From an uncultured Pseudomonadota bacterium (lineage in GTDB: Bacteria > Pseudomonadota > Gammaproteobacteria > Burkholderiales > Methylophilaceae): a DNA stretch of 64,000 nucleotides. A program made the translations under genes and the position numbers. Under the pieces are notes generated by a model. The model saw nothing but the letters and a program-made list of their open reading frames with translations, ran no database searches and had not been told where the DNA came from. Below, in pieces: positions 19,338-45,037 of the stretch. The DNA is taken from NCBI GenBank assembly GCA_903838125.1, contig CAILXF010000024.1, positions 25,086-89,085 on the forward strand, written 5' to 3'. How positions within the stretch are numbered: the first letter of the stretch is position 1; each line of letters opens with the position of its first letter.

Positions 19338-19367
19338 GATTTGAATCATCAAGCTTTGATTCAAATC
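19338..19367. repeat. 30-bp dyad overlapping the hemN/fnr FNR box
   Basis: Perfect 11-bp inverted repeat: GATTTGAATCA (19338-19348) and TGATTCAAATC (19357-19367), with spacer TCAAGCTT. The right arm overlaps the FNR box at 19356-19369. Confidence 0.8.
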
Positions 19368-19369
19368 AA
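19356..19369. promoter_or_regulatory. FNR/ANR box between hemN and fnr
   Basis: TTGATTCAAATCAA, a full match to TTGAT-N4-ATCAA. It is 53 bases from the hemN start and about 131 bases from the fnr start, so it could serve hemN activation and fnr autoregulation. Confidence 0.82.
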
Positions 19370-19500: not shown

Positions 19501-20232
19501 ATGAATCAACCTACCATTCAAGAAGCGATTAAAGTCGCTTGCTCAAACTGCAACTTACGCGAATTATGCATGCCAGTTGGCTTTGATAGCGAAGATATGC
19601 AGAAGCTAGATGAGGTTGTCGCAACCCGTCGCCGGGTGAAGCAAGGTGATCTTTTATTTGCCAATGGCGAGGAATTTACTTCTTTATTCGCAATTCGCAC
19701 GGGTTTCTTTAAAACCTGTATTTCTAGCGCAGATGGCCGCGAGCAAGTCACGGGCTTTCAGATGGCGGGTGAAATTATTGGGCTAGATGGTATTGTAAGT
19801 GACTTCCATAGTTGCAATGCGATTGCACTTGAAGATGCAGAAGTATGCGTGATGCCGTTTGCCAATATTGAAGACCTGTCACGCGAGTTTCCATTGCTAC
19901 AGCGTCATATGCATAAGGTGATGAGCCGTGAAATTGTGCGTGAGAATGGTGTGATGATGCTATTAGGTAATATGCGCGCTGAAGAGCGCTTAGCGGCTTT
20001 TCTTTTAAACCTAGTACAGCGCCTGCATGCCCGTGGTCTGTCACAAACAGAAATCGTGCTGAGAATGACGCGTGAGGAAATTGGTAGCTACCTGGGTCTC
20101 AAGCTTGAAACAGTGAGTCGTGCTTTTTCAAAATTCAGCGAAGAGGGTATTATCGAAGTGAAGCAACGTTATGTCCGTATTATTGACCCTGAAGCCCTAA
20201 AGAAAATCTTTAATCCACAAACTTACTGTTAA
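19501..20232 (+). CDS. fnr: FNR-family oxygen-sensing transcription regulator (paralogue 1)
   Basis: 243 residues of the CRP/FNR family. The N-terminal cluster CSNCNLRELC gives C14, C17 and C23, and a fourth cysteine sits in AEVCVMPF near residue 118, so all four ligands for an oxygen-labile 4Fe-4S cluster are present. The cyclic-nucleotide-like barrel is followed by helix-turn-helix EEIGSYLGLKLETVSRAFSKF (about 192-212), where E-VSR is the FNR recognition helix reading TTGAT. It is divergent from hemN, with a box in between. A second paralogue lies at 28424-29173. Confidence 0.94.
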   Translation: MNQPTIQEAIKVACSNCNLRELCMPVGFDSEDMQKLDEVVATRRRVKQGDLLFANGEEFTSLFAIRTGFFKTCISSADGREQVTGFQMAGEIIGLDGIVSDFHSCNAIALEDAEVCVMPFANIEDLSREFPLLQRHMHKVMSREIVRENGVMMLLGNMRAEERLAAFLLNLVQRLHARGLSQTEIVLRMTREEIGSYLGLKLETVSRAFSKFSEEGIIEVKQRYVRIIDPEALKKIFNPQTYC

Positions 20233-27788: not shown

Positions 27789-27854
27789 TTCGTTACCCCA
27801 TTTTTATTGTGAGTTTCACACGTGACATTCTGACGCAGCAAAACTAAATACTGT

Positions 27855-27868
27855 TTGATCCAAATCAA
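27855..27868. promoter_or_regulatory. FNR/ANR box upstream of ccoN
   Basis: TTGATCCAAATCAA, a full consensus match 66 bases from the ccoN start. cbb3 operons are classic ANR/FNR targets. Confidence 0.85.
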
Positions 27869-28119
27869 TAGTCAAGCAAAAAGGGTTTGGTTTTAACTAC
27901 CATCCCTAAGCTATACAAGTCGTTGACTTTCAGAGAGCCCGCTTAAATTTAACGCCTAAAATATTAGGTGCTTAAAGAAAGCGGCTGAAATAAATGATCT
28001 TGCTGTGTTGTTGACCAAACATTGAACCAATTAGTTTTGCATTTTGCAGATTATAAATACAAAATGTTAATAGATTGTTAAAAAAACAACGGTAGCCATT
28101 TTTTTAGCTTTGCAGATAA

Positions 28120-28133
28120 TTGATTTACATCAA
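28120..28133. promoter_or_regulatory. FNR/ANR box upstream of small DUF2934-like gene
   Basis: TTGATTTACATCAA, a full consensus match 59 bases before the ATG at 28193. Confidence 0.8.
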
Positions 28134-28192
28134 TTTAACATCAGTAGTCACGAGTATTCTTAAATTTAAGGAAATGTTAAGGAGTATTGGTG

Positions 28193-28393
28193 ATGAAAAG
28201 GACTGAAGAAAAAGCACAGGCTGGCGGAAGTAAGCAAAATCAAGTAAAGGCGAAAGTGCCAGTTGCTTATGAGGTTGAACTTCACAGATTGGTGGAACAG
28301 CAGGCTTATTTTCGAGCTGTGTGTGATGGGTTTAGGCTACCCCCTGAAGAATACTGGTATGCGGCCGAGAAGGATGTGCATAAATACTTTTAA
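28193..28393 (+). CDS. Small DUF2934-like protein (copy 1)
   Basis: 66 residues from the ATG at 28193; AAGGAG at 28179-28184 gives eight-base spacing. A TTG at 28187 is in frame but overlaps this spacer. A basic, Lys/Gln-rich N-terminus is followed by LHRLVEQQAYFRAVCDGFRL and PPEEYWYAAEKDV. That matches the helix pattern of DUF2934 (I-x2-AY-x-RAE-x-RG then DWL-x-AE), although E-Y-W-Y-A-A-E replaces the usual DWL motif. Function unknown. Two further copies with their own FNR boxes lie at 35527 and 44463. Confidence 0.75.
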   Translation: MKRTEEKAQAGGSKQNQVKAKVPVAYEVELHRLVEQQAYFRAVCDGFRLPPEEYWYAAEKDVHKYF

Positions 28394-28423
28394 TGCATGG
28401 TAAGCATTAACCGTGCAATTGTT

Positions 28424-29173
28424 CTACTTGCTTGGGTGTTGGCCGATGCGCTTGCGTAAACCTTCCACGTCTAGAATGCGTATATTTTTTTGATGTACGC
28501 TGAGTAGTTTTTGGTCTTGGAATTTTGTAAATATTCGACTTACGGTTTCAACTTTCATTCCTAGATAACTACCAATTTCTTCACGTTTCATACGAAGAAC
28601 GATGTTGAAAGGGGAGTATCCGCGCGCATAAAATCTTTGTGACAAATTAAGCATAAAGGCTGCTATACGCTCTTCACCCTGCATGCTTCCTAAAAGCATC
28701 ATAATCGTGTGGTCGCGCACAATTTCGCGGCTCATTAGTTTGAAAAAATGATTTTGAACTTGGCTAAATTCACGACTGAAATTTTTGACTCTGTCTAGTG
28801 GAATGATGCAAATTTCCGAGTCTTCAAGTGCAACAGAGGTGCTCATATGCTCCTCAGTTGCAATACCATCAAAACCAAAAATCTCGCCCGCCATATAAAA
28901 GCCTGTAATCTGAACTCTACCATCATCATGCAAGCTTTCAGTCTTAATAAATCCAGTTTTAACGGCATATAATGCTTGAAAGCGATCGCCGCTATGATAC
29001 AGACTGTTACCAGCTTTTAACCGCCTTCTTACATAGACCAATTCATCTAATTTCTTGATGAAATCAGATGCAGCTTCTGCCGGCATACATAATGCATGCA
29101 CATTACAGTTAGAGCAGGCGATTTTAGTTTCATGTATTTCAACCTCGCTTTTGAATACATTGATTTTATTAAT
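28424..29173 (-). CDS. FNR-family regulator (paralogue 2), probable ATT start
   Basis: The frame from the first conventional codon (GTG at 29099-29101) would drop two of the three N-terminal cysteines. The frame stays open upstream to a stop at 29192-29194 and encodes ACSNCNVHALCMP. No ATG, GTG or TTG exists in that stretch. AAGGAG at 29180-29185 sits six bases before an ATT at 29171-29173; from there the protein has 249 residues, and its cysteines fall at 20, 23 and 29, the same positions as in E. coli FNR. A fourth cysteine is in SEICIIPL. The helix-turn-helix EEIGSYLGMKVETVSRIFTKF has the FNR recognition residues. A sequencing indel is the main alternative. Confidence 0.82.
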   Translation of the reverse strand: MNKINVFKSEVEIHETKIACSNCNVHALCMPAEAASDFIKKLDELVYVRRRLKAGNSLYHSGDRFQALYAVKTGFIKTESLHDDGRVQITGFYMAGEIFGFDGIATEEHMSTSVALEDSEICIIPLDRVKNFSREFSQVQNHFFKLMSREIVRDHTIMMLLGSMQGEERIAAFMLNLSQRFYARGYSPFNIVLRMKREEIGSYLGMKVETVSRIFTKFQDQKLLSVHQKNIRILDVEGLRKRIGQHPSK

Positions 29174-29179
29174 TTTAAT

Positions 29180-29185
29180 CTCCTT
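29180..29185 (-). promoter_or_regulatory. Shine-Dalgarno that supports the ATT start of fnr2
   Basis: AAGGAG on the minus strand, six bases before the ATT at 29171-29173. It is the only strong ribosome binding site near the conserved cysteine-cluster coding region. Confidence 0.65.
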
Positions 29186-29357
29186 AATCGCTTACTCAAC
29201 TCTCTACTCCACTTTACGAGAGGAGTCGGTTGCATGCAATTACTTATATTGGGAGGTTAAATGGTTAGTAAATGGCTAGTTAAATTAGCCATAGCGATTG
29301 AAGTTTTTTTCAAATCAGATCATTAAAATTCAGTGGATTGGGTAATTTTGACTTAAT

Positions 29358-29371
29358 TTGATACAGGTCAA
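29358..29371. promoter_or_regulatory. FNR/ANR box upstream of ackA
   Basis: TTGATACAGGTCAA, identical to the ompW box; 135 bases before the ackA ATG and about 185 bases from the fnr2 start. Confidence 0.72.
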
Positions 29372-29506
29372 AAATTAATTTCTCTCAGAGTAAATGATAT
29401 TCATAATCTTTATCAACCATTAATTTTCCGAGTAGTTTGCTTAAAAATCCTGAGTTTATCTAACGCTTAACTCACCTAAGTTGTTAATGAATTGGTTATC
29501 CTTAAA

Positions 29507-30733
29507 ATGCTAAATTTTTCTGTACTTGTGTTTAATGCAGGCAGTTCGTCATTAAAGTTCGCGCTTTATGAGACGAAGGTTGTAGGGGATATGCGCTTGG
29601 TTATCAGGGGTGTGGTAAGTCATATTGGTGCCATGGCCTCTTTGTATTGGAACGATGGTACTACTGGCGCGCATATTATTGTTGAAGCTAAAAATCATCA
29701 ACAAGCGGCTGAGTGGGTACTAGATTGGTTGCAACATTTATGGCCTTTCGGTTCCTTGCTTGAAGGTCTTGTATTGGTGGCGCACCGTGTTGTTCATGGA
29801 GGTACGTTTTTTTATAACCCTGTTGTCATTACAGAGCAAGTGATGGCGAAATTAGACAGTCTTACGCCCCTAGCGCCTTTACATAATCCGCAGGCAATTT
29901 CTGTGATTCGGGCAACTCAGGAAAAGTTGCATGAAAAATTATTGATGTTAGCCGTTTTTGATACGGCATTTTTTCAAGATTTACCTCAACATTCCGGTTA
30001 TGCTTTACCTGAAAGTTTTAGCCACGCGCATGGTATTAAACGTTTCGGTTTTCATGGATTGGCGCATCAATTTATGATGCAACGTTTCCATCAACTTCAC
30101 CCACGCCAGCATAGTCATCATGGCATTATTTCTTTTCAGCTCGGTCATGGCTGCTCAGTGACTGCAATTAGCGATGGTAAGCCTCTTGATACTAGTATGG
30201 GATTTACGCCACTAGAAGGTTTGGTGATGGCAACTCGCGCAGGCGATATCGATCCTGGGATACTGATCTATCTTTTGAAAAACGGACATCAGTTAGATGA
30301 GCTAGAACAAAAACTTAATCATCATTCTGGTTTACTTGGCTTGTCAAAATCTAGTGACGACATGCGAGAGTTACTAGCGCGAGAAGTTTACGATGTTGAT
30401 GCAAAGCTAGCTGTCGACATGTTTTGTTATCGAGCGCGCAAGTACTTAGGCGCCTACATGGCTGTTTTAGGGGGTGCTGATGCTGTTTTGTTTGGCGGAG
30501 GCATCGGAGAGAACTCACCAGAAATACGAAAGCGCATCTGTGCTGATATGCATTGGTGCGGCCTACAACTAGATGATGCGCGTAATCAACAGGCCACTTC
30601 TGTTACAAATGCAACGTTAATCTCGTCTGACTCATCAAGTATCAGCGTTTATGTCATTGCAGTGAGTGAAGAGGCAGTCATTGCGGAGGAGGCAAGGGCC
30701 GTCTTGATGAGTTATCCAGAAAATTTAATATAA
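29507..30733 (+). CDS. ackA: Acetate kinase
   Basis: 408 residues from the ATG at 29507 (an in-frame TTG at 29492 is less likely). The opening VLVFNAGSSSLKFALYE (6-22) and later KRFGFHGLAHQF and GGADAVLFGGGIGENSPEIR are the acetokinase signatures; phosphate loop and catalytic segment DTSMGFTPLEGLVMATRAGDI-like residues are intact. It makes ATP and acetate from acetyl phosphate. No pta is adjacent; instead a phosphoketolase-family gene and glycogen phosphorylase follow, suggesting that acetyl phosphate comes from sugar phosphates. Confidence 0.94.
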   Translation: MLNFSVLVFNAGSSSLKFALYETKVVGDMRLVIRGVVSHIGAMASLYWNDGTTGAHIIVEAKNHQQAAEWVLDWLQHLWPFGSLLEGLVLVAHRVVHGGTFFYNPVVITEQVMAKLDSLTPLAPLHNPQAISVIRATQEKLHEKLLMLAVFDTAFFQDLPQHSGYALPESFSHAHGIKRFGFHGLAHQFMMQRFHQLHPRQHSHHGIISFQLGHGCSVTAISDGKPLDTSMGFTPLEGLVMATRAGDIDPGILIYLLKNGHQLDELEQKLNHHSGLLGLSKSSDDMRELLAREVYDVDAKLAVDMFCYRARKYLGAYMAVLGGADAVLFGGGIGENSPEIRKRICADMHWCGLQLDDARNQQATSVTNATLISSDSSSISVYVIAVSEEAVIAEEARAVLMSYPENLI

Positions 30734-32552: not shown

Positions 32553-32566
32553 TTGATGTATATCAA
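32553..32566. promoter_or_regulatory. FNR/ANR box between glgP and the phosphoketolase gene
   Basis: TTGATGTATATCAA, a full consensus match; 50 bases before the phosphoketolase start and 93 bases from the glgP start. Confidence 0.8.
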
Positions 32567-44702: not shown

Positions 44703-45037
44703 CATCAACTCCTCTAAAGAAATTGCAGTTTGCGCTTATGAATTCCTAGCATGTTGATATGTATCAATTTTGGCTCAAATGATTTCATTTGGTTAATTAG
44801 TCGTTAGCACTTAGTAAGCGATGCAAATTAAATCCCCTTATTGTGGTAAAGAGAATTACTTTCAGATTCAGAAAATAGATGCCACACACACATGTTCGGT
44901 GTTTGTAAGTGAAATTTGTTATCTGCACCAATAGTACTGAATCAATTTAATGTCGAGGATGTGCTGGTGCAGATGCTTGCTGGTAGTTGCATTTAAGTCG
45001 CTGGCATAAATATTATTTTTGAATTGACGTGCAATAG
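44703..45037. other. Intergenic region with one FNR box
   Basis: About 335 bases between the DUF2934-like gene and the methyltransferase gene downstream end. Beyond the FNR box at 44754-44767 I see no reading frame with a ribosome binding site; short frames near 44950 look fortuitous. Confidence 0.55.
44754..44767. promoter_or_regulatory. FNR/ANR box upstream of DUF2934-like copy 3
   Basis: TTGATATGTATCAA, a full consensus match located about 51 bases before the start of the 44463-44702 gene. Confidence 0.82.

Follow-up and report, generated by a model that had tools for sequence, protein, structure and literature searches.

Conserved start codons outside the NTG class are known for few bacterial genes, and those that have been studied proved to be translationally limited. 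The AUU, AUC and AUA starts of infC are non-NTG codons behind a good Shine-Dalgarno (SD) sequence, of the class that IF3 discriminates against; the ATT start described here for fnr2 is of the same kind, but infC control is autogenous, whereas the fnr2 product is a transcription factor and not the discriminating factor. In Escherichia coli, pcnB also starts at AUU (Binns and Masters, 2002, as cited in PMC5601948); the codon limits expression there, although pcnB encodes a poly(A) polymerase and no sensor. In Streptomyces, IF3 represses the GTC start of sigR, and the response is deregulated when this codon is exchanged for a canonical one (PMC5472188). Like fnr2, sigR encodes a redox-linked regulator, and its non-canonical start, misannotated in databases, is conserved and lies behind a strong SD; the gene differs in its codon and in its product, a sigma factor held in balance by an antisigma partner, whereas FNR2 has no known partner. 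Conserved ATH codons with an extended SD also occur on a regulator or likely regulator in ccpN of Staphylococcus aureus and Bacillus subtilis (AUA) and in staphylococcal cvfC1 (AUU). In S. aureus, these starts yield about 10% of AUG output, and that of ccpN is condition-sensitive, with up to 30% in rich medium (PMC13009471); both genes, however, belong to Firmicutes and their proteins are unrelated to FNR2. A conserved non-canonical start of the IF3 class on a regulator is already known; for an FNR-family oxygen sensor, fnr2 appears to be the first case in the literature searched.

The window, a 64 kb stretch of a metagenome-assembled genome, carries fnr2 on the minus strand (28424-29173), where it encodes an FNR-type [4Fe-4S] oxygen-sensor regulator of 249 aa, as judged from PDB matches, domains and cysteines. 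The reading frame (28424-29191) is open between an upstream TAA (29194-29192) and a TAG, and the codons after the TAA read GCG ATT AAG GAG ATT AAA ATT AAT AAA ATC ... GCC TGC. Re-reading of the DNA confirmed the statement of the initial annotation that this frame has no ATG, GTG or TTG from the upstream stop to C20 and C23, with which the cluster begins. Two further in-frame ATTs lie upstream, and only the third ATT (29173-29171) has the correct SD spacing; it follows AAGGAG (29185-29180; –9.2 kcal/mol with the anti-SD) by six bases, as had been noted. The gene had been placed at 28424-29185, of which 28424 stands, whereas the SD begins at 29185 and the upper coordinate of the gene is 29173. 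The first in-frame NTG is the GTG of codon 25 (29099-29101, minus strand), a likely automated but wrong start. The cysteine cluster (C20, C23 and C29 in CSNCNVHALC, 29087-29116, minus strand) had been described as lying upstream of this GTG and as lost from an automatically annotated protein; both hold for C20 and C23 but not for C29, since the GTG sits between C23 and C29 and a GTG-started protein keeps the latter.

The stop-to-first-NTG gap of fnr2 (30 codons) is the longest among the 53 window ORFs of at least 150 aa. Taken alone, the absence of NTG is weak evidence, as the chance of finding none over 25 codons, calculated from fnr2's own codons, is P ~0.16. Of the window's 7627 ATH triplets, only 26 (0.3%) are preceded by an SD at about the spacing found in fnr2. 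What is decisive for a non-chance arrangement is its conservation in six of seven orthologues, and on these sequences the non-canonical start of fnr2 is almost certainly real.

When translated from the ATT, the protein has exactly four cysteines, at 20, 23, 29 and 122; the initial annotation had matched the first three to E. coli FNR, and all four are ligand positions of that protein. These cysteines are invariant in the seven orthologues, as are E209, S212 and R213, the recognition-helix residues that read the FNR box TTGAT-N4-ATCAA. FNR2 contains a cNMP-type effector domain (PF00027, E 5.6e-16) and a Crp-type HTH (PF13545, E 4.6e-18), and among solved structures it comes closest to FNR regulators (PDB 9qll/5cvr), which match residues 16-250 of the stop-to-stop frame. 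It thus resembles E. coli FNR and the regulators of PDB 5cvr and 9qll in its cysteines, both domains and the three helix residues. The NCBI Fnr model NF008365 aligned 12-245 on 12-245 with the ATT-started protein, and the score of 218.5 bits, below the cut-off of 228, speaks only against close membership of the E. coli-type subfamily, not against the wider FNR type. E. coli fnr further differs in that it starts at ATG. Given these features, FNR2 would be expected to sense oxygen. The window's genome encodes two further FNR paralogues, at window positions 19501-20232 (plus strand) and on contig C34. The one on C34, the third FNR paralogue (L003; G000:C34:772-1452), is fast-evolving and sits on a long branch, with 47% identity and all three N-terminal cluster cysteines.

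A search of 61 relatives, 187 family genomes, 52 genus genomes and the GTDB contig collection gave seven fnr2 orthologues including that of the window, all from metagenome-assembled genomes of one Methylotenera-like genus; the other six are 61-68% identical to the window's, and no further member of the fnr2 clade was found in the 187 family genomes or the GTDB contig scan. Six nt after the SD, the start codon is ATT in three, ATC in three and ATG in one, the earliest-branching species. The SD, spacer and start read AAGGAG-ATTAAA-ATT in the window (L001), AGGGG-ATTGAA-ATT in L004, AGGAG-ACCGAA-ATC in L005, AGGAG-ACTGCA-ATC in L033, GAGGAG-AATAGC-ATT in L006, GAGGAG-ATTAAA-ATC in L007 and AAAGAG-ATTAAG-ATG in L008. 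All six ATT/ATC genes agree in columns –11, –10, –9, –7 and –6 and in the AT of the start. Four of these (L001, L005, L006 and L033) lack any NTG from the in-frame stop up to the first cysteine, a situation found in 0 of 52 other FNR homologues. The remaining two have NTG codons after the ATY and before the cysteines (GTGs in L004, ATGs in L007), all with poor SDs; in L007, the ATC has a strong SD and both in-frame ATGs lack a good one. Along with these two ATGs, fnr2 of L007 (genome G030) has an insertion of nine residues located after the start and ahead of the cysteine cluster. The SDs of the ATT/ATC genes range from –6.4 to –9.4 kcal/mol versus –2.9 kcal/mol for the ATG gene, a contrast that is suggestive only, as just one gene starts at ATG.

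A maximum-likelihood tree of 59 FNR proteins, built from the first cysteine onwards with the start excluded, placed the seven FNR2 orthologues in one clade (100/100), in which the ATG-started L008 branched first and the six ATT/ATC genes grouped together (99/93). The simplest reading of this topology would be a single change from ATG, followed by interchange between ATT and ATC without return. Among the five gap-free orthologues, divergence at codon positions 1/2/3 was 0.47/0.41/0.71 after the ATT and 0.76/0.61/0.75 before it; because this position dependence is present after the ATT and absent before it, coding constraint begins at the ATT. The 18 N-terminal residues of FNR2 are only moderately constrained. 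The initial annotation had held that relatives with an ATG and a different upstream sequence would tell against its reading, but the single ATG species has its ATG at the identical position, and therefore this codon is the start. The comparison with close relatives that it had proposed turned up ATT or ATC at the homologous codon in five other species, which supports its view that an FNR paralogue truly starts at ATT.

The same data bear on readings in which no ATT start is used. If the protein started at the GTG (29101), it would lack C20 and C23 and be an oxygen-blind FNR-like factor; the GTG is indeed the first NTG of the frame, but C20, C23 and C29 are invariant in 7/7 orthologues, in-frame codon constraint reaches upstream of the GTG and ends at the ATT, and the start of the ATG orthologue precedes the cysteines. 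This start is highly improbable, and the invariant cysteines together with the upstream constraint led us to rule it out. Translation might instead begin at an ATG or TTG that lies upstream and out of frame, and enter the frame by a programmed frameshift or stop read-through, as an out-of-frame ORF of the window (ATG at –62, TTG at –26) does cross the start. However, L006 has no upstream NTG frame across the start, those of L004, L005, L007 and L033 are short and differ from one another, the in-frame stops vary (TAA, TAG, TGA), and the region upstream of the SD is without codon constraint. An upstream frameshift, read-through or coupled leader ORF was rejected as not conserved, and we regard such a route as extremely improbable. 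A structured leader or riboswitch was also rejected: no Rfam match was found in 28300-29700, and no hairpin around the start is common to the orthologues, whose local folds differ. That a sequencing or assembly error masks a normal ATG has next to no probability left. The window comes from a metagenome-assembled genome and a single-base change would be enough, but ATT or ATC stands at the homologous codon with the same SD spacing in five further, separate assemblies that stem from different public projects. These independent assemblies reject a sequencing error, and they equally contradict an indel hiding an ATG, which had been considered at the outset.

It is also conceivable that the ATT/ATC start is real but is not a regulated throttle, the ATG having been lost by drift, with a strong SD compensating and the weak codon persisting without a regulatory role. 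As compensation predicts, all six ATY starts have strong SDs and the ATG start a weak one, and retention of ATY could be partly drift once a strong SD compensates. Yet ATT or ATC is one substitution away from ATG, and none of the six lineages has gone back to NTG at that codon, although reversion had ample opportunity because codons 2-19 show saturation at their synonymous sites (pS 0.81). Furthermore, the paralogue FNR1 has retained an NTG start throughout, and precedents of like anatomy are translationally limited (PMC5472188, PMC13009471). Taken together, loss by drift is unlikely, if still worth weighing. The occurrence of ATT or ATC in 6/7 species speaks for a deliberately weak start, one probably limited by IF3, and against a sequencing error; it is reasonably likely that the non-canonical start has a regulatory role.

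Under the reading that we favor, translation of FNR2 would begin at the ATT (29171-29173), read by initiator fMet-tRNA, with the strong AAGGAG holding the ATT in the P site and so allowing initiation. The weak codon would keep FNR2 output low and dependent on IF3 stringency, as for infC, pcnB, sigR and ccpN, the precedents by analogy with which IF3 may throttle FNR2. In the ancestor of the six Methylotenera-group species, ATG would have given way to ATT/ATC in a single event that came with a stronger SD, and the arrangement would have been kept since. At low oxygen, FNR2 would act on FNR boxes near the divergent ackA; phosphoketolase, phosphorylase and ccoNOP genes are probable further targets. 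We consider this explanation as a whole, an ATT start with a weak-codon and strong-SD limit on FNR2, to be quite probable. The frame, SD, start position, conservation, single origin, cluster ligands and FNR boxes, and the ATA start of infC, are read from sequence, and from these and the precedents we would predict reduced FNR2 output, IF3 sensitivity and the target genes. Those marks of an IF3-discriminated start that can be read from sequence are found at fnr2: there is no usable NTG, a non-NTG codon stands at SD spacing and is non-canonical in 6/7 orthologues, and the SD is strong (–6.4 to –9.4 kcal/mol). That the throttle may be deliberate is a well-grounded inference from the start retained over saturated synonymous divergence, the strong compensating SD and the ATA-started infC of the genus. 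More tentatively, and less likely than not in our view, FNR2 translation could be a condition-dependent switch in which IF3 level or activity, tracking growth state or redox, sets the amount of oxygen sensor. If true, the FNR1/FNR2 low-oxygen network of these methylotrophs, over the acetate kinase, phosphoketolase and cbb3 oxidase genes, would gain an input at the level of translation. The ATG-started sister gene L008 and the six ATT/ATC-started orthologues offer a natural comparison.

The infC start is an ATA behind TTTGGAG in 12/12 genus genomes where infC was found; therefore, the genus initiates at ATH codons and has the usual IF3-sensitive infC start. In these twelve genes (L066-L077, with L074 from the window's genome), there is no NTG ahead of the conserved region, and automated annotation would probably misplace the infC start in the genus. 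For fnr2, gene callers will tend to pick a start that drops cluster cysteines, so that real oxygen sensors look oxygen-blind.

The divergent neighbor of fnr2 is ackA (acetate kinase; 29507-30733, plus strand), which lies beside fnr2 in most relatives: the two genes are divergent in the window, L036, L037, L038 and L040, L039 gives a partial match, and ackA was not found in L035 within the DNA examined there. Phosphorylase and phosphoketolase genes come next in several relatives. An FNR box with one mismatch (TTGATACAGGTCAA, 29358-29371) lies between fnr2 and ackA, and comparable boxes occur upstream of fnr2 in 5/6 relatives, which suggests that FNR1 or FNR2 may control fnr2 together with a low-oxygen route from sugar to acetate. 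The window has 15 FNR boxes with no more than one mismatch, compared with a mean of 3.8 in mononucleotide shuffles. The fnr2-ccoN gap (27789-28423, 635 bases) contains a perfect box (28120-28133) and a plus-strand ORF of 67 aa (28190-28393) without a Pfam match. Perfect TTGAT-N4-ATCAA boxes number five within the 64 kb, a likely sign of a low-oxygen gene cluster; besides the one in this gap, they lie upstream of ccoN, a candidate target (27855-27868), between the phosphorylase and phosphoketolase genes, also candidate targets (32553-32566), near hemN-like/fnr1 (19356-19369) and near a methyltransferase region (44754-44767).
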